Assembly (NCBI RefSeq): GCF_009765685.1
Contig: NZ_LMUY01000103.1
Span: 171,023 to 235,022 of the forward strand
DNA from: Acidisphaera sp. L21
Lineage (GTDB): Bacteria > Pseudomonadota > Alphaproteobacteria > Acetobacterales > Acetobacteraceae
DNA length: 64,000 bases
Reading direction: 5' to 3'
The first letter of the stretch is position 1, and each line of letters begins with the position of its first letter. The translations under genes were made by a program, and so were the position numbers. The notes beneath the pieces were generated by a model that searched no databases, was not told the DNA's origin, and saw nothing but the letters and a program-made list of their open reading frames with translations. Positions 3,329 through 51,499 of the stretch are shown here, one piece after another.

Positions 3329-3347
3329 CCGCGCCGTCGTGAGATAG

Positions 3348-3386
3348 AATAGGGCGGAGGGCGCGGGCTCTCTGCCCTATTTTTTT
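3348..3386 (+). terminator. Rho-independent terminator after hpnH
   Basis: An 8-bp perfect stem (AATAGGGC at 3348-3355 pairing with GCCCTATT at 3374-3381) is followed by a run of T residues to 3386, about 20 nt after the hpnH stop. The T tract lies on the plus strand only, so it terminates the hpnH transcript. The stop codon of the convergent agmatinase-family gene (3377-3379) sits inside the second arm. Confidence 0.8.
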
Positions 3387-4357: not shown

Positions 4358-4426
4358 GGCGGCCTCCCCGAGTGTGCCGACCTAACGTCACGGGGTTGCC
4401 CGGTGGTCAACTCACCTTGGGTGACA

Positions 4427-5062
4427 TCACGCAAGTGGCCCGATGGCCGCGACCCGCGCCAGCAACGCCGTGCGGGCGGAGGCGGCTTCCCGCCCGAGCG
4501 CGATGAGGCCGGAGATCTGGCCGGGGTGCCGGGCGAGCGAACGCAGCAGCGCGGCCGGCCGGATGCGGCCGTTCGCATCCAGTGCCGTCATCGCGGCGGG
4601 CGGCAGGTCGCGATCCGCCGGGTCGCAGATGGCGCGCAGCACGGCGAAGGGCAAGCCGTGTTCCGCCGCGACCCGGGCCACTGCGCCGCTTTCCAGATCG
4701 GCGGCCGATGCACCCGTGCGCCGCCAGGCTGCGAATTTATCCTGTCGGGTGCCGATGATCGCGCTGGCCGCCAGCAGCAATCCGCCGGCCACACCCAAGC
4801 GCGCTGCCAGTGCCGGGTTGGCGCGCCACAATGTGCCATCCTCCGCCACGACGCCCTCGGGCACGATTACTAGACCGGCGGCCAGTTCGGGCGACAATCC
4901 GCCGGCCAGGCCGAAGCTGATGAGACCGGTGACGCCCGACTCGGCCAAGCGGTTTGCTGCCACCGCAGCCCCGGCGGCATCGCCACCGCCGACCGCGACC
5001 TCGATCCCAAGGCCGCGGGCTATCCGCGCCTCCGCCACCAGGCCGACGACGACGCCCAGCAC
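4427..5062 (-). CDS. hpnG: Hopanoid-associated nucleoside phosphorylase HpnG
   Basis: Member of the purine nucleosidase/phosphorylase superfamily that removes adenine from adenosylhopane to give (phospho)ribosylhopane, directly after HpnH. The 211-residue protein shows the family glycine-rich segment FGLAGGLSPEL, and the ASAADLESGAVARVA stretch containing the D-x-E-S-x-A signature. The start is GTG at 5062, three bp beyond the shc stop, so it is translationally close to shc. Assignment rests on the superfamily motifs plus its position immediately after shc, where hpnG is normally found. Confidence 0.9.
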   Translation of the reverse strand: MLGVVVGLVAEARIARGLGIEVAVGGGDAAGAAVAANRLAESGVTGLISFGLAGGLSPELAAGLVIVPEGVVAEDGTLWRANPALAARLGVAGGLLLAASAIIGTRQDKFAAWRRTGASAADLESGAVARVAAEHGLPFAVLRAICDPADRDLPPAAMTALDANGRIRPAALLRSLARHPGQISGLIALGREAASARTALLARVAAIGPLA

Positions 5063-5065
5063 GGG

Positions 5066-6994: not shown

Positions 6995-7004
6995 CCATCC
7001 GGGC

Positions 7005-8246
7005 TCAAACGACGGACTCAAGAGCCGCCGCGGCAGTTTGACCTGACCTGATCGCACCCTCAATGGTGGCAGGCAGGCCGGTGTCGGTCCAATCTCCGGC
7101 CAGCGCAAGATTTGCAAGGCCGATTCTCGCGCCTGGCCGCTTGCGGTTCTCCGCTGGAGTCGCCGCAAACGTCGCACGCTTCTCCTTTACGACACGCCAG
7201 GCCGGCATTGGTTTCGCAATGCCGAGAGCGGCGCACAGTTCCGGCCACACTGTTGCAGCTAAGTCACTAGCTGGACGGTCTATCAGCCTATTCGCCGCGC
7301 TGATGGTGACGGAAACCACACCCGGTTTCACAAAAACCCACTCCGCCGTGGTGCCGAGCAGCCCTACGAAGCCGACCGGGCCTGGCGCCATGTCGTGGCG
7401 GTAGTGCAAATTAACGATCGACTCGAACGCCTCCGGTGCGGTCAGGCCCGGCAGGAGCGATTGCGCCACCGCCGCCGGCACCGCCAGGACGATGCCGTCG
7501 CCGACATCGAGCGTCACTGGCCCGTGGGGCGCGGCGAGAGTGGCGACGCGGCCACCCTCCACCGCCAGGGCCGAGATCCGGCGACCGACATGGATGGTGG
7601 CGCCGGCATCACGCAGCACGGCGAGTGCCGGGTCGATGAAGGTGGCGGACAGGCCGTCCTTGGGGAAGGCGGGGATGCAGGCGCTGCCGCCGCGCATCAG
7701 GGTCTCGCGCATGACCGCCGCCATCAGCGCGGCGCTGCCGGTGGCGGGCGCGGTGTTCAGCGCGGCGATCACCAGTGGCTCGATCAACCGGTCGTTCAGC
7801 GCGCCATGCGGCATGACGTCGGCGACGGTGGCGTCTGGACCAGCCCGCAGCAGGGCCAGCAACCCGGCATATTCGCGCAATCGTGCCCCCGGCACGCGAC
7901 GCCGGGGCGCCAGCACCCACCAGGGAATCGGTCCGGCATTGGGCTCCACCGTCCAGTGCTCGCCCGTCGCCGCGTCGTAGAACGGGAACATCGAGCGTGC
8001 CGGCCCGGCCAGCGTCCCCTCCGACCCGACGCGGCGCAGGAAGCCCGCGATGGCCCGGTTGCCGGACAGCCAGAGGTGGTTGCCGTTATCGATGCGGCAG
8101 TCCAGTTCCTTGTCGTGGTAGGACCGGCATCGTCCGCCGGCGGCCGGACCTGCCTCGTACACGATCACGTCGTGTCCGGCGTCCACCAGCGCCAGCGCGG
8201 CGGCCAGCCCGGCCATGCCGGCGCCAATCACATGAACCCGGCTCAT
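7005..8246 (-). CDS. hpnE: Hydroxysqualene dehydroxylase HpnE
   Basis: FAD-dependent amine-oxidase/desaturase-like enzyme that reduces hydroxysqualene to squalene, the last of the HpnCDE steps. The 413-residue protein starts with a Rossmann dinucleotide-binding motif (VIGAGMAGLAAALAL, residues 6-20) followed by an acidic residue at the end of the second strand (VYEAG). The C-terminal LAGDWTDTGLPATIEGAIRSG is the second conserved FAD-binding segment of this superfamily. Its ATG overlaps the hpnD stop by 4 bp (ATGA), implying translational coupling. Confidence 0.93.
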   Translation of the reverse strand: MSRVHVIGAGMAGLAAALALVDAGHDVIVYEAGPAAGGRCRSYHDKELDCRIDNGNHLWLSGNRAIAGFLRRVGSEGTLAGPARSMFPFYDAATGEHWTVEPNAGPIPWWVLAPRRRVPGARLREYAGLLALLRAGPDATVADVMPHGALNDRLIEPLVIAALNTAPATGSAALMAAVMRETLMRGGSACIPAFPKDGLSATFIDPALAVLRDAGATIHVGRRISALAVEGGRVATLAAPHGPVTLDVGDGIVLAVPAAVAQSLLPGLTAPEAFESIVNLHYRHDMAPGPVGFVGLLGTTAEWVFVKPGVVSVTISAANRLIDRPASDLAATVWPELCAALGIAKPMPAWRVVKEKRATFAATPAENRKRPGARIGLANLALAGDWTDTGLPATIEGAIRSGQTAAAALESVV

Positions 8247-9100
8247 AGCAAATGGCGTGCAACGATCGCCAGTTTACGCCATTTCGGCACCTTTACGGGC
8301 TGGTCCAGCGCCGCCCAGCCGCGCTTCTCCACCATATCCAGAATTGCCGAGTAAGTCGCCCCCATCAGCCGCGCCGGCCGCATCGCCTTCTGGTCGCACT
8401 GCGCCATTGCTGTATGCGCCAGCCCAAAACGCCGCCGCGCCTCCGCCAGCATGCGGTCGCACACCACCGGCAAGTGGGGCGAGGCGAGGGCCGCCCGCGG
8501 TTCGTGCGGCACGCCCGCATCGTCCAGCCACTCGCGCGGCAGATACAGCCGGTCGCGCCCCGCATCCTCGTCCAGGTCGCGCAGAATGTTGGTCAGTTGC
8601 AAGGCGCGGCCGAGCGAGAACGCCACCTCGTCCGCCCGGGCGGACCCGTCGCCGAAGGCGCGCACAGACAGGCGGCCGACCGCGGCGGCCACCCGATCGC
8701 AATACAGATCCAGCGTGGCGAAATCCGGCGCGGCGATGACGGTATCGGCGTCCATCTGCATGCCATCGATCACGGCCAGGAAATCCTCCTGCCGTAGCCC
8801 GAACGCCTTCACCGCCGCCACCAGCACGCGCGTTACCGCGTCGTGGCCGTGGCCGGCATAGACGTCAGAAATTGCCTGCCGCCATTGCTGCAGCCCGGCG
8901 TGTTTCGCCTCGATCGGGGCTTCCTCGTCGGCCACGTCGTCCACCAGGCGGCAGAATGCGTAGATCGCGTACATTGCCATCCGCCGGTCCGGCGGGAGGA
9001 TGCGCATGCCGCGGTAGAACGACGTGCCGGCGGCCTTCACGATCGCCTCGACCGCGGCCAGATCCTCGGGCGGCGCGCCCAACGGGTTCACCGCAGCCAT
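8243..9100 (-). CDS. hpnD: Presqualene diphosphate synthase HpnD
   Basis: Condenses two farnesyl diphosphates to presqualene diphosphate. The 285-residue protein belongs to the squalene/phytoene synthase family: the first Asp motif lies in FCRLVDDVADE (Asp54-Asp58) and the second in ALQLTNILRDLDEDAGRDR (about residues 166-184), which is the classic family signature. The start at 9100 (MAAVNPLGAP) overlaps hpnC by 13 bp; longer upstream starts would run through the whole of hpnC's end and have no family similarity. Coupled to hpnE by an ATGA overlap. Confidence 0.94.
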   Translation of the reverse strand: MAAVNPLGAPPEDLAAVEAIVKAAGTSFYRGMRILPPDRRMAMYAIYAFCRLVDDVADEEAPIEAKHAGLQQWRQAISDVYAGHGHDAVTRVLVAAVKAFGLRQEDFLAVIDGMQMDADTVIAAPDFATLDLYCDRVAAAVGRLSVRAFGDGSARADEVAFSLGRALQLTNILRDLDEDAGRDRLYLPREWLDDAGVPHEPRAALASPHLPVVCDRMLAEARRRFGLAHTAMAQCDQKAMRPARLMGATYSAILDMVEKRGWAALDQPVKVPKWRKLAIVARHLL

Positions 9101-9918
9101 GGTAATGCCAGCAACACGCTGCCCACCACATCGCCCCGCCGCAGCTTTACCCGGCCGGCCAGCGGGTCTTCCCGGTGTAGCCGTCCAGTCAGCCGCTTCG
9201 CCAGCCCGGCGATGACGGCGGTTTCCACGCGCAGCCGCCGGTCCTTCACGCGCCGGGGCAGGGCGGCGCCGGCACGGTTCAGGCCTTGGGTCAGTTCCAC
9301 CATCTGGTTCAACACCTGCCGAAACCCGGGCGAGGCGGCACTCGCCGTGACGGCGTCGGTGGTCAGCCCCGCCGCCGCCAGCATGTCCTGCGGGATGTAG
9401 CAGCGATCCAGTTCCGCCAGATCCCCGGCGCAATCCTGCATGTGGTTCAGCACCTGCAGCGAGGCACACAGCGCGTCCGATGGCTCATAGGTGTCGGTAG
9501 ACTCCCCGTGCAGGTCCAGCACGTGCCGCCCCACCGGCATGGCGGAGTAGCGGCAGTACTCGATCAACTCGTCCCATGACGCATAACGCAGCTTCGTCGC
9601 GTCCTGCCGGAACGCGCGGAGCAGGTCCAGCGAGTGCTGTGCCGTGACGCCGGTTTCGGCCAGGCTGGCGCGTAGCCGGGTGGCGCTGGGCGAGCCATCC
9701 GGCTTGTCGCCCACTAGCACTGCGCCCATCACGTCCAGCCGGGCGACCTTGTCCTCGGAACTCAGCGTCGCACTGTCGGCGATGTCGTCGGCTTGCCGGG
9801 CGAAATCGTAAAACGCATGCACGTGCGGGCGCAGCGAGGCACGGATCAGCCGCGAACCAACCGGGAAGTTCTCGTCGCTTTTGCCCTTGCCGGACGGGGC
9901 CTCGACAGACGTGCTCAT
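9088..9918 (-). CDS. hpnC: Hydroxysqualene synthase HpnC
   Basis: Squalene/phytoene synthase homologue that converts presqualene diphosphate to hydroxysqualene. The 276-residue protein has FYDFARQADDIAD (Asp44-Asp48 motif) and the second-region equivalent LNHMQDCAGDLAELDRCYIP (about 157-176). This second motif is diverged from the LTNILRD form of HpnD, as is typical for HpnC. The ATG at 9918 overlaps the hpnB stop by 4 bp. Order hpnC-hpnD-hpnE matches the established squalene module. Confidence 0.93.
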   Translation of the reverse strand: MSTSVEAPSGKGKSDENFPVGSRLIRASLRPHVHAFYDFARQADDIADSATLSSEDKVARLDVMGAVLVGDKPDGSPSATRLRASLAETGVTAQHSLDLLRAFRQDATKLRYASWDELIEYCRYSAMPVGRHVLDLHGESTDTYEPSDALCASLQVLNHMQDCAGDLAELDRCYIPQDMLAAAGLTTDAVTASAASPGFRQVLNQMVELTQGLNRAGAALPRRVKDRRLRVETAVIAGLAKRLTGRLHREDPLAGRVKLRRGDVVGSVLLALPWLR

Positions 9919-11027
9919 GTTCCGGCCTCGCCATAGGCCCGGTTCTTCCACACCACGCCGCGGCCGCGATGGTGGTCGATCGCCGAGCCGATCGTCGCCG
10001 CCATGTAGAAAGCCGCGACGAGCGGCAGCGCCAACGCCCACAGCACCGATTGGCGGAACCGCAGCAGCGTCGGCACGTAGCTGGCGGCCGAGCCGACCCA
10101 TGCCGCAAGCCCGGCCCAGCGTGTCGGGCCGTGGCCGAAGATCGCCAGCAACGGCGGCGCCAGCCACACCAGTGCCAGGCCCACGATGGTGCCCAGCAGG
10201 ATCAGCGGCGAGAAACGCAATTGCACATACGCCGTGCGCGCCACCATGCGCCATACATCGACGGCTTCCGGGTAGGGGCGGATGGAGCGTGCCAGTTGGC
10301 TATGCCCCAGCCAGATGTGGCCGCCCTGCTTCACCGCGGTTGCCAGCGCCACGTCGTCGATCAATTTGCCCCGCACTGCTTCGATTCCACCGATCCGCTC
10401 CAGCGCCGCCCGGCGGATCAGGATCGTGCCCCCGGCCGCGGCAGCCGTGCTGTTCGCCGGGTCGTTCACGCGCGCGAAGGGATACAGCAATTGGAAGAAG
10501 AACACGAAGGCGGGCACCAAAGCCCGCTCGGCGAAGCTCGTGCAGTTCAGCTCCACCATCTCCGACACCTGGTCCAGCTTGGCGCTCTCCAGCTTGGCGA
10601 CCAGGGTGGCAACGTGCGCCGGGTCATGCACGATGTCGGCGTCGCATAGCAGCACGACCGGAGCGTCGCCGCGCCGCACGCCCTGCGCCACGGCCCAAAG
10701 CTTGCCGCTCCACCCGTCGGGGCGGGGGGCGCCGTCGATCACCACCAGGCGCGGATCGGCCAGGCTGCGCGCGATGGCGCCGGTGCCGTCGCTGCTGCGG
10801 TCGTCGACCAGGAAGATGCGCAGCGTGCCCGGATACGCCTGCCCCAGCAGGGAACGGAGGCAGCGTTCGATGCTCTCTGCCTCGTCCCGCGCCGGCACCA
10901 CGATATCCAGGGCCGGCGCGTCGGTGGGAATGGCGGGCGCCAGTATCGGGCCGGCGGACCAGAATCGGCCGTGCCAGGCCAGCAGATACACCCAGGTGGC
11001 CAGGGCCAGCAGGGCGATCGCGATCAT
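9915..11027 (-). CDS. hpnB: Hopanoid-associated glycosyltransferase HpnB
   Basis: Membrane-associated GT2-type glycosyltransferase of the hopene-associated group; its exact substrate is not established. The 370-residue protein opens with a hydrophobic anchor (residues 1-18). It then has DIVVPARDEAESI, the nucleotide-sugar stretch FLVDDRSSDGT and the LLCDADIVHDP segment with the D-x-D metal-binding acidic pair. The last 110 residues contain several hydrophobic segments likely to span the membrane. The ATG at 11027 overlaps the hpnA stop (ATGA). A longer in-frame reading through hpnA has no family similarity and was rejected. Confidence 0.91.
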   Translation of the reverse strand: MIAIALLALATWVYLLAWHGRFWSAGPILAPAIPTDAPALDIVVPARDEAESIERCLRSLLGQAYPGTLRIFLVDDRSSDGTGAIARSLADPRLVVIDGAPRPDGWSGKLWAVAQGVRRGDAPVVLLCDADIVHDPAHVATLVAKLESAKLDQVSEMVELNCTSFAERALVPAFVFFFQLLYPFARVNDPANSTAAAAGGTILIRRAALERIGGIEAVRGKLIDDVALATAVKQGGHIWLGHSQLARSIRPYPEAVDVWRMVARTAYVQLRFSPLILLGTIVGLALVWLAPPLLAIFGHGPTRWAGLAAWVGSAASYVPTLLRFRQSVLWALALPLVAAFYMAATIGSAIDHHRGRGVVWKNRAYGEAGT

Positions 11028-12025
11028 GCCGGCAACCGCCCAGCGTCGCGGAACCAGGCGATCGCGTCGGCCACCGCCTCGCGTGCCGGGCGGTAGGTGT
11101 AGCCCAGTTCGGCCTGCGCCTTGGCGGACGAGAAGAACATCTTCTTCTTCGCCATCGCCAGAATGTCGCGGGTCACGATCGGCTCGATCCCTGCGACTTT
11201 CGCCAGGCCCTCGCTGGCCAGCGCCAACGGATACAGCGCGGCGACCGGCAGCTTCACCCGCGGCGGCTTGCGCCCGACGATGTCGGCCACCATGGCCAGC
11301 AGGCTCTGCATGCCCATATCCTCGCCGCCGAGGATGTAGCATTCGCCGACCCGACCCCGCTCCAGCGCCAGCACGTGGCCCTGCGCCACATCGTCCACAT
11401 GCACGACGTTCAGCCCGGTATCGACATAGGCCGGCATGCGCCCGGCGGCGGTGTCGGTGATCATCTTGCCGGTGGGCGTCGGCTTGATGTCGCGCGGGCC
11501 GATCGGGGCGCTGGGGTTCACGATGACGACCGGCACGCCATCCCGCGCCAGCGCCAGCACGGCCTGTTCGGCCAGGTATTTGGACTTCTTGTAGACGCCG
11601 ATGACCTTTTCCAGCGAGTTCGGCGTCGTCTCGGTCCCTGGCGTGCCGTCGCCGACCAGGCCCAGCGCCGCGACGCTGCTGCAATACACCATGCGCTGCG
11701 CCCCGGCCGCCTGCGCCGCCAAAAACAGTGCCCGGCTGCCATCGACGTTGGCGCGGTTCATCGCCTCCGGATCCGGGACCCATAGCCGGTAATCCGCCGC
11801 CACGTGCACCACGTAGCGGCAGCCCACCGCCGCTCGCTCCAGCGATGCCGGCTCCTTCAGGTCGCCCACGGCCAGTTCGGCGGGCAGCCCGGCGATGTTG
11901 CTGCGGTCGCTCCCCTCCCGCACCAGCAGGCGAATGGCGTGGCCACGCGCCAGTAGCGCACGCGCCACGGCCGAGCCGACAAACCCGGTAGAGCCGGTGA
12001 CGAGGGTAAGACCTGTATCAAGCAC
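11024..12025 (-). CDS. hpnA: Hopanoid-associated NAD-dependent epimerase/dehydratase-type sugar enzyme HpnA
   Basis: Extended short-chain dehydrogenase of the dihydroflavonol-reductase/epimerase type, first gene of the hpn operon; its biochemical role is not firmly known. The 333-residue protein has the NAD-binding TGSTGFVGS motif (residues 10-18), SSVAALG with the catalytic Ser region near 116, and YKKSK (Tyr145, Lys149). The start is GTG at 12025 (MLDTGLTL). It is separated by 65 bp from the stop of an upstream binding-protein gene on the same strand, so the operon promoter may be in that short gap or further upstream. Confidence 0.92.
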   Translation of the reverse strand: MLDTGLTLVTGSTGFVGSAVARALLARGHAIRLLVREGSDRSNIAGLPAELAVGDLKEPASLERAAVGCRYVVHVAADYRLWVPDPEAMNRANVDGSRALFLAAQAAGAQRMVYCSSVAALGLVGDGTPGTETTPNSLEKVIGVYKKSKYLAEQAVLALARDGVPVVIVNPSAPIGPRDIKPTPTGKMITDTAAGRMPAYVDTGLNVVHVDDVAQGHVLALERGRVGECYILGGEDMGMQSLLAMVADIVGRKPPRVKLPVAALYPLALASEGLAKVAGIEPIVTRDILAMAKKKMFFSSAKAQAELGYTYRPAREAVADAIAWFRDAGRLPA

Positions 12026-13819: not shown

Positions 13820-16800
13820 ATGGCACGCAGTGATCCGCAGTCTCCGCTGACGATGGTTCCTGGAGACCAGGCGGAGCAAGATAGGCTGAGCCTAATTCAG
13901 AAGTCCGGCTTGTTTGAGGGAGAGTGGTTTCTCGCGCGCAACCCGGATCTGGGCGATAACGGCCCACGCGCGATGGTCCACTGGCATCGCTATGGCTGGC
14001 GGGAGAATCGCTGGCCCAATCAATACTTCGATCCGGATTATTATCGCGCCCGCAACCCGGATTGCATGGCCGATCCGCTGCTGCACTACATCCAGGTCGG
14101 CGAGGCGGCTGGCCGGCGGCCGGTGCCGTATTTCGACCCGGTTTGGTATCGCGCCCAACACGCGGTGCCCGCTGATGAGTTGTGCCTGACGCATTTCCTG
14201 CGCCACCGCCAGAGCGGCAATTTCAGCCCGATCGCCGAGTTCGATAGCGCGCATTACCTGAAGAACAACGAGGACGTCGCCTCCGCCGGGATGGACCCGA
14301 TGGAGCATTATCTGGTGCGCGGGTTCAGCGAGGGCCGCTCACCGTCCCCGGGTTTCGATCCGCGCCGCTGGCCCGGCGCGGCGCTGGATCCCAACCCGCT
14401 GCTGGGCCTGCTGCGCTGGCGCGAACAATCGCGGCTGGACGCCAGCGTGCCCAACATCGCCGACGAGGTGCGCAAGAACACCCGCCCGAATGCCGGGTTC
14501 GAGGAAGTGGCGCCCTTGCCGCCCGGTCTTCCGGCGCAGGCCAAGCTGCTGGCGTATTACCTGCCGCAATATCATCCGGTGCCGGAAAACGAGGCCTGGT
14601 GGGGCAAGGGCTTTACCGAATGGACCAATCTGGGCCGCGCCCTGCCGCGTTTCGCCGGGCATTATCAGCCGCGCATCCCGCGCGATCTAGGCCATTACCG
14701 CCTGGACAGCACCGACACGCTGCACCGCCAGATCGCGATGGCGAAGGGCGCCGGGCTGCACGGCTTCGTCGTCTATTTCTACTGGTTCAACGGTCGCCGC
14801 CTGCTGGAGGGGCCGCTGGAGGCCTTGCTTGCCGATCCAACCCTGGACATGCCGTTCTGCCTGATGTGGGCGAATGAGAATTGGACGCGGCGTTGGGATG
14901 GCTCGGAACACGAGATCCTGCTGAGCCAGGATTACCATTCCCGCGACGAGCGCGCCTTGGTGGACGAGTTCGCCCGGCATTTCGCCGACCCGCGATATAT
15001 CCGCATCGGTGGCCGGCCGGTGCTGATGGTGTATCGCCCGCGGTTGATCCCCGACACCGCCGCCACGGTGGCGCGGTGGCGGCGATTGTTCCAGGCGGCG
15101 CATGGCGAAGACCCGATCTTCATCATGGGCCAAAGCTTCGGCGATACCGACCCGCGGGAGTTCGGCATGGATGCCGCAGTGGAGTTTCCGCCGCATAAGC
15201 TGACGTCGCAGGTGCCGATGATCACCGACCAGTTGCATGTGCTGGACCCTGCGTTCGATGCCCAGGTCTACGACTACGCCGCCATCGCCCGCGCCTCGGT
15301 GGACGAAGCCGCGCCGCCATACCCGTTGATCAAGACCGTCGTGCCCGGCTGGGATAACGACCCGCGCCGCCAGGGCGCGGGCACCGTGCTGCATGGCGCC
15401 ACCCCGGCGCTGTATCAGGCCTGGTTGGAGGACCTGATCCGCTACGCCAGGCGCAACCGGATCGAGGGGGAGGCGATCGTCTGCATCAATGCCTGGAACG
15501 AGTGGGCCGAGGGCGCGACGCTGGAGCCGGACGTGCATTGGGGCGGGGCATTCCTGAACGCCACCGCCCGCGCCGTGAGCGGCCTGCCGGCGGTGGAATC
15601 CCGCACCCGGGTGCTGCTGATCGGCCATGATGCGCTGGCGCATGGCGCGCAGACCCTGCTGTTGCGCATCGGCCGGGCGCTTCGGGCCGGCCACGGGGTC
15701 GATATCGCGTTCCTGCTGCTGGGCGGTGGCGTGATGGAGGCGGATTATCGCAGCGTGGCGCCAACCACCGTGGCAGGCGGGCTCGACCAACTGGATGGGC
15801 TGCTGCAAGCCGCCCGCGCTGGCGGGTGCAACGCCGCTATCGTCAACAGCGCCGCCAGTGCCGGGGTGGTGCCGCTGCTGCAACGCCATGGCATCCAGTC
15901 CGTGCTGTTGGTTCATGAATTGCCGCGGTTGCTGCAGGAAAAGGGCCTGCAGGAGCCATTGCGGCAGGCGTTGGCCGTGGTCGATACGGTGGTATTCCCG
16001 GCCGAATTGGTGCGCGAGCGGTGCTACGAAGCGCTGGCGGCCACGCCACGCCATGCTGTGGTCCTGCCGCAGGGCATCGATCTGCCAGACACGCCGGCCC
16101 CGCCCGTTCTGGCGGCGGTGCGGGCCGAATTGCGGGTGCCCGTTGGTGGCCTTCTAGCCCTGGGCATGGGCTACGCGGATTTGCGCAAAGGCTTCGACCT
16201 GTTCCTCCAGGCCTGGCGGGTCACGCGGGATGTCCAGCCACCCATGTGTTTCGCCTGGGCTGGCGGAATCGACCCAACCACCAAGGCCTATCTCGGCACC
16301 GAGATCGCCGCGGCGGAGGCGACCAACACATTCCGGTTCCTGGGTCCGCGGCCGGATCCGGCCGCCCTGTTGGCCGCGGCCGACGTGTTTCTGTTGACCT
16401 CGCGGGAAGATCCGTTGCCCTCCGTGGCGCTGGAGGCGATGGCGGTCGGCACGCCCGTCGTCGCGTTCCAGGAAACGGGCGGCATCCCCGACCTGCTCAC
16501 CTATTACGGCGGCGGCCGCTCCGTGCCGCTGGGTGACGTTGCCGCCATGGTCGATGGCGCGTTGCAGGAGGCGTTGGGCGCCACTTCGGCGCGCCGGGCC
16601 AGATTGTCGGCTACCGGTCGCGCCGCCTTCCGGTTCGAGGATTACACCGCCCGGCTGCTGTCCCTGGCGCGCCCGGCCATGCTGCCGATCTCGGTCGTGG
16701 TGCCGAATTGCGACTATGGCCGCTATCTGGAGGAGCGACTGGCCTCGATCTTCGCGCAGTCCTACCCCGTGACCGAGATCATCGTGATCGATGACGCCTC

Positions 16801-17512
16801 CACCGACGACAGTGTCACGGTGATCGAGCGGACGGCGCAGGCGTGGAACCGGCGTATCCGCCTGGTACGGCAGGACCGCCGCTCCGGCTCGGTTTTCGCG
16901 CAATGGCGCCGCGCGGCCGAGTTGGCGACCGGCGAGTGGTTGTGGATCGCCGAGGCCGACGATGGGGCGGAACCGAGCATGTTGGCCGCCCTGGCCGCCG
17001 CGGCGGCCAGGGCGCGGGACCCGGCGTTCGCCTTCTGCGATAGCCGCGCCATCGACCCGGCCGGCGCGACGATGTGGCCCGACCACAAGACCTATTACGG
17101 CCCCAGCGTGCTGGCGACGGACGCCGTGTTCGAGGGCGCCGCCTTCCTGCGCAGCCACCTGGCCGAGCGCAACCTGATCATGAATGCCAGCGCCGTCTTG
17201 TGGCACCGGGAGGAATTGCTGGCCGCCCTACGCCGCTGCGAGGCCGAATTGCGCGAGTTCAGGGTCGCTGGGGATTGGCGCCTGTATGCGGAGGTGCTGG
17301 CGCGGGAAGGCGCGCAGGTCGCCTATGTGTCCAAGCCGCTGAACCACCATCGCCGCCATGCCGCCAGCGTCACCGCCCGCATCGGGGCGGCGGCCCATTC
17401 AGCGGAGATCGCCCGGATCCATGATGTCGTGGCCAAACTGGTGGGGCCGGATGCGGCACTGCGCCGGCGGCAGCGGCGTTACCGCAAAACCCTGCTGAGT
17501 GGCTCGGCCTAG
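13820..17512 (+). CDS. Large multidomain polysaccharide glycosyltransferase: N-terminal repeats, WbsX, GT4 and GT2 domains
   Basis: 1230-residue cytoplasmic protein, probably assembling a surface polysaccharide. Residues 30-205 hold about five degenerate 35-40-residue repeats built on F-D-x-x-Y-Y-x-x-x-N-P-D ... H-Y-x-x-x-G-x-x-E-G-R-x-P. Residues 240-580 are a WbsX/GT99-like domain (LAYYLPQYHP, WWGKGFTEWTN, FVVYFYWFNGRRLLE, NAWNEWAEGATLEPD). Residues 596-950 are a GT4-type transferase (MGYADLRKGFDLFLQAW, SREDPLPSVALEAMAVGTPVV). Residues 954-1230 are a GT2 domain (ISVVVPNCDYGRYLEERL, IDDASTDDS). It precedes the dTDP-rhamnose genes by about 75 bp on the same strand, suggesting rhamnose is one of its donors. 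No strong ribosome binding site was seen; a Met at 13853 is an alternative start. Confidence 0.88.
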   Translation: MARSDPQSPLTMVPGDQAEQDRLSLIQKSGLFEGEWFLARNPDLGDNGPRAMVHWHRYGWRENRWPNQYFDPDYYRARNPDCMADPLLHYIQVGEAAGRRPVPYFDPVWYRAQHAVPADELCLTHFLRHRQSGNFSPIAEFDSAHYLKNNEDVASAGMDPMEHYLVRGFSEGRSPSPGFDPRRWPGAALDPNPLLGLLRWREQSRLDASVPNIADEVRKNTRPNAGFEEVAPLPPGLPAQAKLLAYYLPQYHPVPENEAWWGKGFTEWTNLGRALPRFAGHYQPRIPRDLGHYRLDSTDTLHRQIAMAKGAGLHGFVVYFYWFNGRRLLEGPLEALLADPTLDMPFCLMWANENWTRRWDGSEHEILLSQDYHSRDERALVDEFARHFADPRYIRIGGRPVLMVYRPRLIPDTAATVARWRRLFQAAHGEDPIFIMGQSFGDTDPREFGMDAAVEFPPHKLTSQVPMITDQLHVLDPAFDAQVYDYAAIARASVDEAAPPYPLIKTVVPGWDNDPRRQGAGTVLHGATPALYQAWLEDLIRYARRNRIEGEAIVCINAWNEWAEGATLEPDVHWGGAFLNATARAVSGLPAVESRTRVLLIGHDALAHGAQTLLLRIGRALRAGHGVDIAFLLLGGGVMEADYRSVAPTTVAGGLDQLDGLLQAARAGGCNAAIVNSAASAGVVPLLQRHGIQSVLLVHELPRLLQEKGLQEPLRQALAVVDTVVFPAELVRERCYEALAATPRHAVVLPQGIDLPDTPAPPVLAAVRAELRVPVGGLLALGMGYADLRKGFDLFLQAWRVTRDVQPPMCFAWAGGIDPTTKAYLGTEIAAAEATNTFRFLGPRPDPAALLAAADVFLLTSREDPLPSVALEAMAVGTPVVAFQETGGIPDLLTYYGGGRSVPLGDVAAMVDGALQEALGATSARRARLSATGRAAFRFEDYTARLLSLARPAMLPISVVVPNCDYGRYLEERLASIFAQSYPVTEIIVIDDASTDDSVTVIERTAQAWNRRIRLVRQDRRSGSVFAQWRRAAELATGEWLWIAEADDGAEPSMLAALAAAAARARDPAFAFCDSRAIDPAGATMWPDHKTYYGPSVLATDAVFEGAAFLRSHLAERNLIMNASAVLWHREELLAALRRCEAELREFRVAGDWRLYAEVLAREGAQVAYVSKPLNHHRRHAASVTARIGAAAHSAEIARIHDVVAKLVGPDAALRRRQRRYRKTLLSGSA

Positions 17513-17586
17513 GCGGAATCACTGCCTTGGTTGCTGCGGTGGCGGCTGGATGGCAGATTGAGACGGTTACAAGAACAGGTTTCAAA

Positions 17587-18666
17587 ATGCGACTGCTGCT
17601 CACCGGTGGCTGCGGCTTCATTGGCTCGGCCGTTGTGCGGTATTTGATCCGGCACCGCGACGCCACGATCATCAATGTCGACAAGATGTCCTATGCCGCC
17701 TCGGAAGATGCGCTGGAGGAGGCGCGGGGCCATGCCCGGCACGTCCTGATCCACGCCGACATCACGGATGCCGCGGCCATGCAGCAGGTGTTCGCCACCC
17801 ACCAGCCGGACGCGGTGATGCACCTGGCGGCCGAAACCCATGTCGACCGCTCGATCGACGGGCCGGGGCCGTTCGTGCAGACCAACGTCGTCGGCACCTT
17901 CGTCCTGCTGGAGGCCGCGCGGGCCTACTGGGCGGGGCTCGACCCGGCCCGGCGTGCCGCCTTCCGCTTCCATCACGTGTCCACCGACGAGGTGTTCGGC
18001 GCGCTGGAGGTGAACGACCCGCCCTTTACCGAGACCACACCCTACGACCCGCGCAGCCCATATTCCGCCAGCAAGGCCGCGTCCGACCACCTGGTCCGCG
18101 CGTGGTGGCACACGTATGGCCTGCCGACCTTCGTCACCAACACCACGAACAATTACGGCCCCTGGCAATTCCCGGAGAAGCTGATCCCCCTGGTGACGCT
18201 GAACGCGCTGGAGGGCAAATCCCTGCCGGTCTATGGCGACGGGTCCAACCAGCGGGACTGGCTGTTCGTCGACGACCATGCCGAGGCACTGGTGCTGGCG
18301 CTGGAGCGGGCCGAACCCGGCGCCACCCTGGCGATCGGCGCCCAGCAACCGCGCAGTAACCTGCAGGTGGTGAAATCCATCTGCGCCGCGCTGGACCGCC
18401 TGCAGCCCGACCCGGCCGGCCCGCGCGAGCGGCTGATCCACTTCGTCACCGACCGCCCCGGCCACGATTTCCGCTACGAGATCGACCCGGCGCGGGCCCA
18501 CTCCGCCCTGGATTGGCGCGCCCCGCATGATTTCGACCGCGGGCTGCAGCGCACGGTGGAGTGGTATGTGAACAATCGCGCCTGGTGGGACCGCATCCGT
18601 GCCGGGCGCTACGCCGGGCAGCGTTTGGGGACGGCAGCGCCGCTTCAGCCGGTCGCGGCAGCGTGA
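17587..18666 (+). CDS. rfbB: dTDP-glucose 4,6-dehydratase
   Basis: Second enzyme of dTDP-L-rhamnose synthesis: oxidises, dehydrates and reduces dTDP-glucose to the 4-keto-6-deoxy sugar. The 359-residue protein has the NAD-binding TGGCGFIGS (residues 6-14), HVSTDEVFG with the catalytic Thr-Asp-Glu triplet, and the [10 protein letters not shown] Tyr-x-x-x-Lys motif. [14 protein letters not shown] and [15 protein letters not shown] are further family segments. The start at 17587 (MRLLLTGG) places the Rossmann motif correctly; an upstream in-frame GTG/ATG would add about 20 unconserved residues. The stop overlaps rfbA (GTGA). Confidence 0.96.
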
Positions 18667-19538
18667 AGGGCATTCTCCTCGCCGGTGGCTCTGGCACGCG
18701 GCTGCATCCGATGACGCTGGCGGCCAGCAAGCAATTGCTGCCGGTCTACGACAAGCCGATGGTCTACTACCCGCTGTCGATCCTGATGCTGTCGGGAATC
18801 CGCGACATCCTCATCATCTCCACCCCGGTGGATCTGCCGATGTTCCGGCGGTTGCTGGGCGATGGCTCCCAGCTTGGCTGCCGCTTCACCTATGCCGAAC
18901 AGCCCTCGCCGGACGGGTTGGCCCAGGCTTTCCTGATCGGCGCCGACTGGTTGGGCGGGGAGGCGTGCGCCCTGGTGCTGGGCGACAACATGATCTTCGG
19001 CGACCACCTCAGCCTCACCCTGCAGGCCACCGCCCAGCGCACCGAGGGCGCCACCGTCTTCGCCTACCAGGTGCGCGACCCGGAGCGGTATGGCGTGGTG
19101 TCGTTCGACGCCGCCGGGCGCGCCACCAGCATCGTGGAAAAGCCCACGACGCCGCTGTCCAACTGGGCGGTGATCGGGCTGTATTTCTACGATCACCGGG
19201 TGAGCGAGCTTGCCCGGCAGGTGAAACCCTCGCCGCGTGGCGAGTTGGAGATCACCGACCTGAACCGCCTCTATATGGAGGCGGGGTCGCTGACGGTGGA
19301 ACGGCTGGGCCGCGGTTGCGCCTGGCTGGATGCGGGCACGCCGGACAGTCTGTTGCAGGCGTCGACCTTCGTGCAGACCATCCAGTCCCGCCAAGGCATG
19401 CTGGTCGGCTGCCCGGAGGAGGTCGCATTCCGCATGGGCTTCATCGATGCCGCCACCCTGCGAACCCGGGCCCTGGCGCTGAGCAAGACGGAACTGGGCC
19501 GGCTGCTGCTGGAACTTGCCGACGGAGTGCATGCATGA
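18663..19538 (+). CDS. rfbA: Glucose-1-phosphate thymidylyltransferase
   Basis: Makes dTDP-glucose from dTTP and glucose-1-phosphate, the first step of the dTDP-rhamnose pathway. The 291-residue protein begins [18 protein letters not shown], the nucleotidyltransferase signature, and has [11 protein letters not shown], the metal-binding LGDNMIFGD, and VVEKP-like [21 protein letters not shown]. Start is GTG at 18663, overlapping the rfbB stop by 4 bp. The length equals typical RmlA proteins. Gene order rfbB-rfbA-rfbC-rfbD with overlapping junctions indicates one translationally coupled operon. Confidence 0.96.
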
Positions 19539-20092
19539 AGTTCGAACGCCTCGCCATTCCCGAACTGCTGTTGTTCACCCCGGCGCGGTTCGGTGACGCG
19601 CGCGGCTTCTTCTCCGAAACGTGGAAGGCGCGGGACATGCAGGATGCCGGGATCGACCTGCCTTTCGTCCAGGATAATCACAGCATGTCGCAGGCCCGTG
19701 GCGTGCTGCGCGGGTTGCACTGCCAGTTGGACCCGCATGCCCAGGGCAAGCTGGTGCGGGTGGTGCGCGGTTCGATCTGGGACGTGGCGGTGGATGCCCG
19801 CCGCGGCTCCCGCACGTTTGGCCGCCATGTGGGCGTGGAGCTGAGTGCCGCCAATTGGCAGCAGCTCTGGGTCCCGCCCGGCTTCCTGCACGGCTTCTGC
19901 ACGATGGAGCCGGATACCGAGGTGGTCTACAAAACCACCGATTATTACGATAAGGCGTCCGAGCGGGCGGTGCTGTGGAACGACCCGGACCTGGCAATCT
20001 CGTGGCCGATCCCGGCGGCGGAGATCCAACTGTCCGAGAAGGACAAGGTGGCGTCGAGTTGGGCCGATATGCCGGTCTGGTTCCGGGTATGA
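19535..20092 (+). CDS. rfbC: dTDP-4-dehydrorhamnose 3,5-epimerase
   Basis: Cupin-fold epimerase acting on dTDP-4-keto-6-deoxyglucose at C3 and C5. The 185-residue protein shows the RmlC hallmarks: [33 protein letters not shown] (catalytic His in LHCQ), [27 protein letters not shown] and [21 protein letters not shown]. The ATG at 19535 overlaps the rfbA stop (ATGA) and the end overlaps rfbD by 4 bp. Confidence 0.96.
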
Positions 20093-20952
20093 TCCTGGTC
20101 ACCGGCGGGGCTGGCCAGGTTGCCACCGAACTGGCGGCCCGATCGGCCCAGGTGAGCCGGGTCGGCCGGCCCGAGTTCGACTTCGACCGGCCCGAAACCA
20201 TCGCCGCCAGTTTCGACCAGGTGCAACCCAGCCTCGTGGTGAACGCTGCCGCCTGGACCGCCGTCGATGCCGCGGAAGCGGAGGAGGCAGCCGCGTTACG
20301 CGCCAACCGCGACGGCCCGGCCGAATTGGCCCGGCTCTGCGCCGCGGCCGGCATCCCGCTGGTCCATATTTCCACCGATTACGTGTTCGACGGTCGCAAG
20401 GGCGCGCCTTATGTCGAGACGGACCCGACCTGCCCCACCGGTGTCTACGGCAGCAGCAAACTGGCCGGTGAGCAGGCGGTGTTGTCGTACGACCGCGCCA
20501 TCGTGCTGCGGACCTCCTGGGTCTACGCCGCCATCGGCAAGAACTTCGTCCGCACCATGCTGGGCGCCGCGCAGAAGACCAAGACGCTCAAAGTGGTGGC
20601 CGACCAGCATGGATGCCCGACCAATGCCGGGGACCTGGCCGACGCCATCCTCGCCATTGCCGCCCGCGTCGCGGATGGTTGGCGCCCGGACTACGCCGGC
20701 ATCTTCAACGCCGCCGGCACGGGCAGCACCACCTGGCACGGCCTGGCGCTGGCCACGTTCGAGGAAGCCGCCCGCCATGGCCGCGCGATGCCGACGGTAA
20801 ACCCCATCGCCACCGCCGACTGGCCAACCCCGGCCAAGCGCCCGCCGGACTCCCGCCTGGACTGCAGCAAGCTCGCCCGGGTGTTCGACGTCCACCTGCC
20901 GGCCTGGCGCCCGAGCCTGGCCCACACGGTGGACGTGATCATTACGGTTTAA
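20089..20952 (+). CDS. rfbD: dTDP-4-dehydrorhamnose reductase
   Basis: Final step of dTDP-L-rhamnose synthesis, NAD(P)H-dependent reduction of the 4-keto group. The 287-residue protein begins with the Rossmann motif VTGGAGQVATELA. It has NAAAWTAVDAAE, STDYVFDG, the YGSSKLAGE active-site motif and RTSWVYA, all RmlD features. The ATG at 20089 overlaps rfbC by 4 bp. Its 3' end overlaps the convergent pseudouridine synthase gene by 11 bp, so there is no room for a terminator between them. Confidence 0.95.
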   Translation: MILVTGGAGQVATELAARSAQVSRVGRPEFDFDRPETIAASFDQVQPSLVVNAAAWTAVDAAEAEEAAALRANRDGPAELARLCAAAGIPLVHISTDYVFDGRKGAPYVETDPTCPTGVYGSSKLAGEQAVLSYDRAIVLRTSWVYAAIGKNFVRTMLGAAQKTKTLKVVADQHGCPTNAGDLADAILAIAARVADGWRPDYAGIFNAAGTGSTTWHGLALATFEEAARHGRAMPTVNPIATADWPTPAKRPPDSRLDCSKLARVFDVHLPAWRPSLAHTVDVIITV

Positions 20953-46240: not shown

Positions 46241-49200
46241 CTACACCGCAAGCGGCTTGCGATTGCGCCGGCGCTTGGCGTGGTCCGTGGGGGCAACCGC
46301 TGGTTCGGCTGGCGTGGGCCGCGGCGGATCTGGCTCCTCCGTGCTGCGGGCCTGCTCCGCTGTCTTACCCGCCGCGTTCTCATCCTGCAGCACGGCTGCG
46401 ACCGGTGCTTCTTCAATAAGGAGATCGGTGGCATCCGCGGCCGCCCGAATAGCGGCTATGTCCGCCTGCGCCACTTCTAAAGCGATCTCCCGCAGTGCAA
46501 ACGATAGGATTCGGTCGTCTGCAGCGTCGCCGATATCCATCGGGCTGACGGCCTTGCCGCTCACGATCGTCAGCAGGAGATATTCGCCGGCAGTCATAAT
46601 TTGTTGCGCCGACAGGGTCAGCGTTTCGCGACGCCAGCTGTCGTCGGCCCGAATCGTCCGGGCGATCTCGTCCCCGTCCAGCAAGAAGCGGAGATCCACT
46701 GGGCCATCTGACAACGCACCTCGATACAGCATCATGTCGATGTGGAGGTGAACCGGTGCCCCCCTGTCCGAGAGCAGCCGGAGGCTCAGCGTGGCTTCGC
46801 CACCATTCGCCCACACCATGGAGGCTTCGGGTGCGTGCCAGTCTTCCCATAGCGCATCGCGGATGTTGCCGCCCTCGGCGAATGAAACGGGCGTGCCAGG
46901 TAACAACGTTAGAAACGACGGCGCCTCCATTGGCGGTAGAGCCGCCATCGCCGGTAGCGGGGCTGTAGCCCCTACCTGTTCCATCCGTTCCATTTCCGCA
47001 GTTGCAACTGTCCTGATCTCGATCGAGAAAATCCGGAAGGATAGTCGACGCTGGTCCCCGCCTTCGGCCACCATGATCGGGGCGATGCCCGGTGGACCCG
47101 AGAAGGTCACACGCATGATATTCAGCGCATCGATCGCCAAGTCTGTCTCAACTTCGATCGTTTCTGTCGAGACGCTCAACGCGTTCGCCGGCAGCATGCT
47201 CACTTGGGCTCGTCCGACGATGACTGTCATGGCCGCATCCTCACCAGCCAGCCAATCATACGACACATACCGGATGGTCAGGCGCAGTTTGTCCTGTAAA
47301 TCGCCGCGCAGCCGCATATGGGCCGTGCTTGGCCGCCCATCGGACCAGGTACCATCCGACTCCGGTGGATGCCAGCCACCTGCAAGCCCTGTGGTCAATC
47401 GCGACGTCGTATTGAATTCAAGCAGCGTGTTCAAATCAACCATCGGAGCGGGTACGCCGGCTTCCTGGCGGCGGGGCGCCGCCATCACCACGACCGTTTC
47501 GGTCTGCAGCGACTGGATGATTTCTCTGGGAACGCGATCGAAAAACCCAACCCGGCGTACAGTGACACGTCCGAAGCCTTCGCTTCGCACGCCCAGCATA
47601 CAATGCTCCAACGACCCATTCTCAGACGACATCAGCTTGATCGCGCGGAGTTCGTGCTCCTGGCCAGTGAAGATAAGGCGGCCGACCGATATGCCGTCGA
47701 GCGTAATCGCGGCCTGGCACGGGCCATCCACCAGGACGTCGAGGCCGAGGTAGACGGGGGCGTTACCCTGTGCCGGGCGACGCATCGGGATACCATTGTC
47801 GTGCTTGAGAACATCTGACCAGATGTTGAGCTTGGTGTGGAAGATCGGCTCCAGCGTCATGTCGAGCACGCGGAGCCCGAGCAAGCGGCCGTCAGTCGTT
47901 TCGCTGTATTTCGCTGGAGCGCGCGGGTCTTCAATCTCCAAGGCGACGATTAGATCCTTCGTGTCGCCCAGGAGTTCGCGGTAAATCGGTATATGCAGTT
48001 GCTGGGCTTGCGAGCCGACGATCAAGTTGGTGACGACCGTGTTATTGATCGTGCAGCGGACGCGCTGGGGTTGCGTGTCGCCCGGCATGAACGCACGGGC
48101 GCGGATCACCAATGCCACACCAACGCTGGCTGGAGCGTCGAGTCGCATCCCCAGTGATGCGACGCTGCCGATCGTCCAGCACCCATCCCGTTCGATGCCG
48201 GACCAGCCGCCAAGCTGATACTCCGCGCCGGGCGAGCGGGTACCGCCCTCGACCAGTCCGAACGTAATCGACTCGCCCATGGCGAGCGGCGTCAGCGCCT
48301 CGGGTGCCAAGTCATGGGCCAGCGCGTCTGCCACGGTGGACGCGGATTCCGCCCAGCTATAGGGCTCGTAGGTCTTGGCCTTCGTGGTGCGGGCGGCGAG
48401 GTAGGCTGGCGTGAAGCAGTAGCTCTGCAACGCCTCGTACCAGCCCTTGAAGTCCATCGGGTCCAGCAACTCCACCAATTCGGGGGCGATCTCCGGCAGC
48501 GACCCAGCGTTGGAAGAGAGGCAGAACTTGCCATATCGCAGGCTTTCCGCGACGGGCAGGCCCCAGCCCTCGTACAGGGAGGGATAGACGGTGAACATGC
48601 AATTCACGTACAGCCAGTTCAACGTCATGTCGTTGATGCCGTGCAGGATGTGAACGCGGGTGGATGCGATGCCGTCCGTCGCCAGTTGCTTGACGATGTC
48701 CTCCGCGCCCCAGCCCTTGCTGCCCACCATGATCAGGTGGGGTGCGCGCTCACCGTAATCGGACACCAAGCGCCGCCACAGCGAAAACAGGAGCGTGTGG
48801 TTCTTGCGCACGTCCAGGGCGCTGACATACAGCACGAAGCGGCTGTCGCGGAAACGGCTGACCACATCAACGTCAAGCTCCGCGGCCGGGTCGATACTGG
48901 CGGCGGTATCGCCGAGGCGGAAGACGTCGATTGGCGGCAGGGGCGCGCGCACTGCCAATGCGAACTCCCGGATGTCGTCGGCGCTGCATTGCGAGCAGGT
49001 GAGGATCCGGTCCGAATACTCCAGTACACGGGCGCAATTGTTGGAAAAGTCTTCGCCGACGCCTTCAGGGAACCACTTCTCAAATTTCCACTGGATGACA
49101 TCGTAGATGGTGGAGATGAGTCCGACCTTCATCGCGCGCTTCGTGGTCAGCAGGTCCTGCAAATAGGCTCCGTTGCGGATCCACGCGCCGCCAAATAGGA

Positions 49201-51499
49201 CGATGACGTCCCCAGGCGAAAACGGGATTTGGGCGTAGGGTAGTTTATTGTTCCAGTCGGTCATGAATGGCTCGGCCGCCGAAGACCGCAGGTTCTTGTA
49301 TGCGCCATTCTCCAGCCAGGCGCGGCTGATCGGCAGAAAGCGACGGAAATGCGAGTTCCACAGGATGAACTGCACACGGCTGCCGAGACTATCGGATAGT
49401 TCTATCGCCAGCCGGTCCTCGGTCCGGGCGATGCCAGAGGGTGGGCCATCACGGTGAGCCGACGTGGTGAGATCGACAAACAAGGTCTTTGCGCGGTCAA
49501 GCGGTAGACTCTCGATTTGGGCGTGGTTGGCCACGGCGGATCGGTACGCGTCCAGCGTACGTTGGGCGTGGATTTCCCAGCTATGCTCGCGGCTGACCAA
49601 ATCGATCAGGGCCGCGGATTTCTCGTAGACGCGACCCTCCCCATAGGCAGCCAGCACCGCCTCTCGCACACTCGCCAGATCCGCCGGATCGCAGTAGCGG
49701 GCCAAGTCGCCGAAATACTCCCGCTCAGACGAGCGGTCACTGAGAACCATGTTGCAGCCAGCCGCCGCGGCCTCCAATGCCACCAGCGGCGCGCCCTCCG
49801 ACCAACTCGGCAGGCAGAATACTTTTGCACCTGCATAGGCAGAGGCCAGCATCTGGCTGCCCGGCGGCAGGCGACCGATGAAATGAACGTTCGGTGCGTC
49901 GATTTTACTGAGCAGCGAAACGTAGGGCGTGGTCTGCTGCTCACCCACGAACACCAGCGGAATGTCCGTGTCGCGCAAAGCCTCAATCAGGGCGAGTTGG
50001 TTCTTCCGCGCTTCGACCCGGCCCACACAGAGTACGTAATCGGAGATTCCGAATTCTTCGGCGAACATCGCCGGGTCCGCCCCGGTGTACAACTCAAGGG
50101 CAACGGGGTTTGGCACGATCGACGTGGATGGATGTTCGATCCCCTGCTCCCGCAGCAGGGATTCCTCATGGCGACTTAGGAAAATCAGATGGTCCGCGCG
50201 GGATAGGAGTTTGCTGACCATGCGGATATAATCGGGGATCGGTTCGTATTGCTTGGCGTCGGGCAGTTGGGCCGCTGCCAGGCGGTCCCGTGCGGCGCTG
50301 TAGGCGAATTCCACGCCGACGCTGTCGGTGCCGACTTTGGGCAGTAAATGGAGCGGCGTCTCGTAAGCCTGCTTTTCACGCAGATCGAGGTAGATCGGTG
50401 AAATCACCAGGGGACGGTTGGATTTCTGCACCTGACGAAGCAGCAATTCACACTCGGCCGGGTGCCAAATGTTCAGCACGTGCACGACGTCGAATTGTTC
50501 GGCGGAGAAATCGCGTCCGGCGATGAATTTGGCATCGACCCCAAGCCGCCGCAGCATGACGGCGGTCCGCGGCGCGCGCGTGGTCGGTCCACCTTTGGAC
50601 CCAACTTCGCTGCCGTGCACGACGATCGCGGACGAATGCGGCGGCTCGGGCAGTACTTGGACGATGGGGCCGGCAGTCTCGCGCAGGTTCTCGCCCAAGA
50701 TTTCGCCAAACAGCGTGTTATGGTTTTCGGCCCAGGCGGTCCAGCTATAAGCGGCAACGCTGCTGGCCAGATCCTGCTTTTCCTGTAGCGCCTGCAGCAA
50801 CACACGGCGCAGATCATTGGCGTCGCCGTTGCGAAACTCCCGGTGAGGAAACTCGGGCACCCACCCGACATTGGACGAGATGATCGGGCAGCCGCAGGCC
50901 AGCGCCTCTAGCGCGCACATGGGGCCGCCCTCGACCAACGCTGGTATCAGCACGTAATCGAGCGTGCGGTAGAAGTTGGGAAGCTCTGCCTCCGGCACGA
51001 ATTGCGATGCGCCGGGCCAGCCGTCACCGGTAAAATGCCAGTCGATATCGGGGATATCCATCACCGACTGCACCAGGGCCTCGCCTTTGCGGCCGGTGTG
51101 ATAGGTACGACCGACGACGCCGATCTTCAGCCGCGGCCGAAACCGCGTGTGGTCAACGCCGGGGGAAATGGTGCGGACGTTTTGGTGCCCGGCGGCACGC
51201 AGGATCTCCTCGGTCGCACGGGATTGGGCGACGGAATAATCCACCGCACCGGCCACTGCGAAGAAACGATCCGCAGCATCCTGCCTCTGCTCCAGATGGG
51301 TAAACAGGGCCAACTCGTGCTGGGAAACACGGGCCTGCCGCGAGCCATAGGTGATGTAATATTGAATGTCGGCCGCCGGGTCTGGCACGGTATCGAAGCC
51401 CACATAATCCAGCCGGCTCGCGATTTCGTGAGCAAGCCGCTCCAAGATCCAGCCATTGTCGGATATGACGATATGAACCCGCTTGAGGCCGCGTGACAT
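46241..51499 (-). CDS. Giant protein with three GT4 glycosyltransferase domains and three C-terminal Trp-rich beta modules
   Basis: 1752 residues. GT4 domain A (about 1-270): IGVVGRTYHTGRKGEALVQS, LIPALVEGGPMCALEALACG. Domain B (about 286-660): RVEARKNQLALIEAL, CLPSWSEGAPLVALEAAAAG. Domain C (about 670-1065): VLYVSALDVRKNHTLLFSLW, YPSLYEGWGLPVAESLRYG. The remaining about 690 residues hold three beta-sandwich-like modules starting near 1078, 1354 and 1528. Each begins with an aromatic motif, GGWSGIERDGCWTIG, GGWHPPESDGTWSDG and EDWHAPEASMVWANG. They are followed by matching beta-rich stretches (LRVLDMTLE, FRIFSIEIR, FALREIALEV at the ends). A Pro/Arg tail (ENAAGKTAEQ ... RRRNRKPLAV) ends it. 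No membrane segment or signal was seen. Probably polymerises a surface glycan; the sugars are unknown. Confidence 0.82.
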   Translation of the reverse strand: MSRGLKRVHIVISDNGWILERLAHEIASRLDYVGFDTVPDPAADIQYYITYGSRQARVSQHELALFTHLEQRQDAADRFFAVAGAVDYSVAQSRATEEILRAAGHQNVRTISPGVDHTRFRPRLKIGVVGRTYHTGRKGEALVQSVMDIPDIDWHFTGDGWPGASQFVPEAELPNFYRTLDYVLIPALVEGGPMCALEALACGCPIISSNVGWVPEFPHREFRNGDANDLRRVLLQALQEKQDLASSVAAYSWTAWAENHNTLFGEILGENLRETAGPIVQVLPEPPHSSAIVVHGSEVGSKGGPTTRAPRTAVMLRRLGVDAKFIAGRDFSAEQFDVVHVLNIWHPAECELLLRQVQKSNRPLVISPIYLDLREKQAYETPLHLLPKVGTDSVGVEFAYSAARDRLAAAQLPDAKQYEPIPDYIRMVSKLLSRADHLIFLSRHEESLLREQGIEHPSTSIVPNPVALELYTGADPAMFAEEFGISDYVLCVGRVEARKNQLALIEALRDTDIPLVFVGEQQTTPYVSLLSKIDAPNVHFIGRLPPGSQMLASAYAGAKVFCLPSWSEGAPLVALEAAAAGCNMVLSDRSSEREYFGDLARYCDPADLASVREAVLAAYGEGRVYEKSAALIDLVSREHSWEIHAQRTLDAYRSAVANHAQIESLPLDRAKTLFVDLTTSAHRDGPPSGIARTEDRLAIELSDSLGSRVQFILWNSHFRRFLPISRAWLENGAYKNLRSSAAEPFMTDWNNKLPYAQIPFSPGDVIVLFGGAWIRNGAYLQDLLTTKRAMKVGLISTIYDVIQWKFEKWFPEGVGEDFSNNCARVLEYSDRILTCSQCSADDIREFALAVRAPLPPIDVFRLGDTAASIDPAAELDVDVVSRFRDSRFVLYVSALDVRKNHTLLFSLWRRLVSDYGERAPHLIMVGSKGWGAEDIVKQLATDGIASTRVHILHGINDMTLNWLYVNCMFTVYPSLYEGWGLPVAESLRYGKFCLSSNAGSLPEIAPELVELLDPMDFKGWYEALQSYCFTPAYLAARTTKAKTYEPYSWAESASTVADALAHDLAPEALTPLAMGESITFGLVEGGTRSPGAEYQLGGWSGIERDGCWTIGSVASLGMRLDAPASVGVALVIRARAFMPGDTQPQRVRCTINNTVVTNLIVGSQAQQLHIPIYRELLGDTKDLIVALEIEDPRAPAKYSETTDGRLLGLRVLDMTLEPIFHTKLNIWSDVLKHDNGIPMRRPAQGNAPVYLGLDVLVDGPCQAAITLDGISVGRLIFTGQEHELRAIKLMSSENGSLEHCMLGVRSEGFGRVTVRRVGFFDRVPREIIQSLQTETVVVMAAPRRQEAGVPAPMVDLNTLLEFNTTSRLTTGLAGGWHPPESDGTWSDGRPSTAHMRLRGDLQDKLRLTIRYVSYDWLAGEDAAMTVIVGRAQVSMLPANALSVSTETIEVETDLAIDALNIMRVTFSGPPGIAPIMVAEGGDQRRLSFRIFSIEIRTVATAEMERMEQVGATAPLPAMAALPPMEAPSFLTLLPGTPVSFAEGGNIRDALWEDWHAPEASMVWANGGEATLSLRLLSDRGAPVHLHIDMMLYRGALSDGPVDLRFLLDGDEIARTIRADDSWRRETLTLSAQQIMTAGEYLLLTIVSGKAVSPMDIGDAADDRILSFALREIALEVAQADIAAIRAAADATDLLIEEAPVAAVLQDENAAGKTAEQARSTEEPDPPRPTPAEPAVAPTDHAKRRRNRKPLAV

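Follow-up and report, generated by a model that had tools for sequence, protein, structure and literature searches.

The question raised by this locus is what one polypeptide that combines three GT4 glycosyltransferase (GT) domains with a row of C-terminal beta-rich modules would do in glycan assembly. The window, a 64,000-nucleotide stretch of the genome of Acidisphaera sp. L21, includes at 46241-51499 exactly one ATG-to-stop open reading frame, which lies on the minus strand. It encodes the 1752-residue protein described in the first-pass annotation, where no strand had been given. A plus-strand gene at the same position was ruled out, as that strand is full of stops. The features of the gene are as follows.

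46241..51499, minus strand: whole open reading frame, 1752 aa, ATG start, stop included
50696..51478, minus strand: GT-1, residues 8-268, compact GT4 domain (Pfam, alignment)
49532..50632, minus strand: GT-2, residues 290-656, GT4 domain (Pfam, alignment)
48320..49486, minus strand: GT-3, residues 672-1060, GT4 domain (Pfam, alignment)
47846..48259, minus strand: module M1, residues 1081-1218, predicted CBM-like jelly roll with W1099/E1103/W1108/R1205
47480..47812, minus strand: module slot M2, residues ~1230-1340, eroded, low model confidence
47012..47431, minus strand: module M3, residues 1357-1496, predicted CBM-like jelly roll with W1376/E1380/W1385/R1484
46475..46897, minus strand: module M4, residues 1535-1675, predicted CBM-like jelly roll with W1554/E1558/W1563/R1663
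46244..46450, minus strand: C-terminal tail, residues 1684-1752, ~70 residues, Pro/Ala/Glu-rich, weakly conserved

Pfam recognised three GT4 stretches in the protein (Glycos_transf_1 / Glyco_trans_1_4; PF00534 at 154.8 bits against a cut-off of 26.4, and PF13692 at 135 bits) and gave no match in the final ~690 residues. The GT4 matches in NCBIfam were all sub-threshold, and therefore no named enzyme family fits the protein. Six further full-length proteins show homology to it from end to end. In the alignment of these seven members the R/K and EX7E donor-site residues are invariant in all three GT domains, namely R131, K138, E190 and E198 in GT-1, R494, K499, E568 and E576 in GT-2, and R898, K899, E977 and E985 in GT-3. 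Three separate GT4 domains, each with its own donor site, had been proposed from the translation and are borne out by these data; as the donor-site residues are intact in every domain, a dead remnant among the three was ruled out at the level of sequence.

GT-1 is the most conserved domain among family members (54-58% identity), followed by GT-2 (41-43%) and GT-3 (33-37%); the modules are at 15-25%. Comparison of the three domains with one another by hhalign gave probabilities of 76% for GT-1 and GT-2, 57% for GT-1 and GT-3, and 96% for GT-2 and GT-3. They are mutually distant, which rules out a recent triplication of a single GT, and therefore they are not copies of one activity. Judged from the intact motifs, all three are probably active and differ in specificity. 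GT-1 is compact and not truncated, as a stand-alone relative of equal length, a 273-aa protein, is encoded in a Planctomycetota MAG, where its gene adjoins another GT4 gene. GT-3 is of a type common in the bacterial family, often found alone or with one module after it, and a GT-3 domain with one module forms a separate protein of ~750 aa in several genera. Known parts thus appear to have been fused in the giant protein.

A 1864-aa paralogue in the same genome and a 1939-aa protein of another genome (G003) have the whole layout, with 41% identity over residues 1-1222. In every member with a long enough contig, GT-1, GT-2 and GT-3 are followed by three to five modules. With GT-1 as bait, members were found in 6 of 299 genomes of the bacterial family and 10 of 395 genomes of the order, representing four genera, and no further members among 385 genomes of the class. 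One member, with a GT-1 identity of 59%, is present in Sphingobium lactosutens; this locus and the Planctomycetota locus were obtained by a contig scan (one query, two loci) in which genomes outside Alphaproteobacteria are under-sampled. The full protein defines a rare, so far unnamed family. Its patchy spread and the Sphingobium member, rather than a tree, suggest horizontal transfer.

Three GT domains in one chain were initially considered unusual. They are not without precedent, as the O8-type WbdA of Escherichia coli is likewise a chain of three GT modules (PMC11231755) and a second chain with three GT4 domains is encoded in the same genome. The latter, a 1264-aa protein, is encoded in L034:6413-14260, ahead of a GT4-module protein and a TPR-GT4-module protein.

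The C-terminal part was searched with an HMM for which all 32 training modules had been taken from other proteins, unrelated to this one. M1, M3 and M4 were found with i-E values of 1.5e-26, 1.6e-12 and 5.5e-17, respectively, and the best i-E in 200 shuffles of the window protein was ~3. The three C-terminal copies are therefore far beyond chance, in agreement with the three beta-modules with a common motif noted earlier. To these is added a fourth, degenerate slot (M2) between M1 and M3, which is recognisable in relatives and eroded past detection in the window protein.

The module is widespread: 87 of the 150 genomes sampled from the same bacterial family carry it. The profile search across Acetobacteraceae that had been suggested thus reveals a module with many relatives, and one without any was ruled out. 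It is carried by GT4 and GT2 proteins, GDSL hydrolase-GT2 fusions, multi-pass membrane proteins and methyltransferases, among others. In the G003 relative, the fifth module matches DUF7024 (PF22895) at 31.3 bits against a cut-off of 24.4, and a single-module membrane protein matches it at 29.8 bits; the gathering cut-off of PF22895 was not reached in the window protein or anywhere in its genome. The 32-module HMM, some members of which match PF22895, finds the PF22895-positive module of P0003 at 5e-24. By this HMM link the window modules are classified as distant relatives of DUF7024, and the module is already known in kind, not new. A literature search on DUF7024 found none in the library used.

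Prediction of the 616-residue C-terminal part gave model confidence of ~82 for M1, ~73 for M3 and ~71 for M4, and poor values for M2 (pLDDT ~40). The strand order is identical in the modelled M1, M3 and M4, and M4 modelled alone with 56 modules aligned reached a pLDDT of 94 and a pTM of 0.88. The top structural matches were CBM35 2w47_A for M1 (Z 10.7, rmsd 3.0, 120 aligned), CBM6 8j3x_A for M3 (Z 10.5, rmsd 2.6, 117 aligned) and CBM22 4xun_A for M4 (Z 10.7, rmsd 2.5, 122 aligned). Overall, the predicted structures matched CBM22, CBM35, CBM29, CBM6 and CBM15 chains with Z 9-11 and rmsd 2.5-3.4 over 112-127 residues, with BcsB close behind. Thus, the structure prediction and search proposed in the first-pass annotation, which had left room for three segments of unlike fold, yielded one common fold whose nearest solved structures are CBMs; the predicted fold of M1, M3 and M4 is a CBM-like beta-sandwich jelly roll. 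Cry toxin domain III and meprin MAM domains, which do not bind sugars, also reach Z 9-10 to the modules. No significant match was found between the module sequence and solved structure chains, so that a sequence match to solved CBMs was rejected; Pfam likewise gave no CBM family match in the modules of the window protein. Sugar binding by the modules is plausible from the modelled fold.

A motif W-x3-E-x4-W, followed further on by R, occurs in nearly every module, each of W, W and R being conserved in at least 90% of 56 modules. The exception is M2, in which E and R are both absent in 5/5 aligned orthologues (P0002-P0006), cases that are orthologous and hence not independent. The joint loss is as expected from a structural ion pair and suggests one. 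The W/E/W/R motif is near-invariant across hosts as unlike as methyltransferases and membrane proteins, which suits a structural role no less than a ligand site.

With roughly even chances, the protein would be a cytoplasmic trifunctional GT4 glycosyltransferase with a CBM-like tail that holds or positions a glycan or docks partners. A cytoplasmic location is expected, as GT4 domains use nucleotide sugars. Working on an acceptor that is membrane-bound or otherwise tethered while a surface glycan is assembled, the three divergent GT-B catalytic domains would add sugars in succession and probably form as many as three different linkages. The product may be a polymer or one short oligosaccharide. 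The row of CBM-like modules (three and a vestige here, three to five in relatives) would hold or position the acceptor or the growing glycan; alternatively, it may dock partner enzymes. We infer catalysis by each GT, action in sequence, sugar binding and the type of glycan. The trifunctional reading is supported by the fixed order of GT-1, GT-2, GT-3 and modules, by the three GT4 matches with intact donor motifs, by the mutual distance of the GTs, by the common CBM-like fold predicted for the modules and by glycan genes near some relatives. Against it stand the lack of adjoining glycan genes at the window locus, from which the rmlBADC cluster is ~26 kb away, the occurrence of the CBM-type fold in non-sugar-binding domains, and the lack of a sequence relationship between the modules and any solved CBM.

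The neighbours of the triple-GT gene differ between genomes. In the window they are a SulP transporter gene on one side and a gene for a DegP-type protease on the other, and no adjoining glycan genes were found. Among relatives, a nucleotide-sugar dehydrogenase gene lies directly upstream in G834, genes for a polysaccharide pyruvyl transferase and a methyltransferase lie beside the gene in G175, and genes for a single-module protein and a methyltransferase lie near it in G803; one methyltransferase neighbour is common to two of the relatives' genomes. Directly upstream of the G803 gene, L088:8447-9046 encodes a 200-aa protein that comprises little beyond one module. Three triple-GT genes, not including that of the window, are accompanied by a divergent TPR-protein gene (L031:8607-9863, L032:8414-9565 and L078:6980-8131), and the N-terminus of these TPR proteins is alpha/beta-hydrolase-like (weak match).

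Elsewhere in the window, a 1230-aa fusion of a WbsX-type glycosyltransferase with GT4 and GT2 is encoded at 13820-17509 on the plus strand, and rmlB, rmlA, rmlC and rmlD follow immediately at 17527-20949. Together they make up a dTDP-rhamnose / surface glycan cluster. The rml genes are ~26 kb from the triple-GT gene, and their presence means that dTDP-rhamnose is available in the cell. The genes at ~825-12025 resemble a hopanoid cluster, for which the profile check covered an HpnH-like radical SAM protein with DUF3463 (2186-3325) and an HpnA-like epimerase (11027-12025).

An alternative is a processive polymerase, the idea of the first-pass annotation, in which the GT domains would act in turn, repeatedly, on one lipid-linked chain while the modules retain the polymer. 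In WbdA of E. coli O8 and Klebsiella pneumoniae O5, one polypeptide carries three GT modules, each responsible for one linkage (PMC11231755), and tandem CBM-like modules could confer processivity on such an enzyme. We consider this reading somewhat unlikely for the window protein: its gene lies outside any O-antigen cluster, no coiled-coil or terminator partner was identified, and the reading is weakened by the absence of Wzt_C (PF14524) from each of six genomes searched among those that carry the triple-GT family. Wzt_C is the CBM-bearing domain of an ABC transporter, and some ABC-dependent systems do without it. Its most specific form, a three-linkage single-chain polymerase that resembles WbdA, carries three to five acceptor-holding modules of its own as a processivity tether and is spread over Acetobacteraceae and sphingomonads, is rather unlikely.

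The modules may instead be protein-protein scaffolds that assemble enzymes of glycan synthesis and bind no carbohydrate, a reading that we regard as doubtful. Fusion of the module to hosts as varied as those listed above would be in keeping with a scaffold, as would its fast divergence (18-25% identity versus 33-58% for the GTs) and the structural look of W/E/W/R, with E and R lost together in all M2 modules. However, the nearest folds are mostly CBMs, and all hosts that can be named are of kinds used in glycan metabolism. It is improbable that three pathway steps, otherwise separate, were simply fused without acceptor channelling, the tail being decoration: a complete GT-1 alone in the Planctomycetota MAG and a separate GT-3 with one module indicate that the parts work apart, but every full-length member, over a GT identity range of 33-58%, retains all three GTs fused to three or more modules.

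The trifunctional glycosyltransferase that we favour can be compared with several known systems. In WbdA of E. coli O8/O9 (K. pneumoniae O5/O3), two or three GT modules likewise share a cytoplasmic polypeptide, each serving one linkage (PMC11231755). However, no CBM-like tail is reported for WbdA, and its genes belong to O-antigen clusters that also contain wzm/wzt and wbdD, whereas no such neighbours were found at the window gene. Several fused GT domains are also present in WbbB of Raoultella terrigena / K. pneumoniae O12 and in ORF6 of K. pneumoniae O7, the latter with a predicted CBM-like domain (PMC11231755); unlike the window protein, these have GTs of other families in another order and include a terminator domain. 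CBM22, CBM35, CBM29, CBM6 and BcsB resemble the window modules in their beta-sandwich fold and tandem arrangement, but are mostly secreted or periplasmic, whereas the window protein would be cytoplasmic. The ~750-aa GT4-module proteins of the same bacterial family have the same succession of GT-3 and module, but lack GT-1 and GT-2 and carry a single module. A literature search for three glycosyltransferase domains with GT4 found none. There are precedents for either half of the design, and the combination of three GT4 domains with a module array is a variant not found described.

How a multi-GT chain keeps the order of sugars and the length of its product is an open question in bacterial polysaccharide assembly. 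The triple-GT family offers a natural series of module numbers, from three to five with one slot degenerate, in which a role of the modules in tethering or processivity can be addressed, and a widespread module, mostly without a Pfam name, would thereby gain a function.
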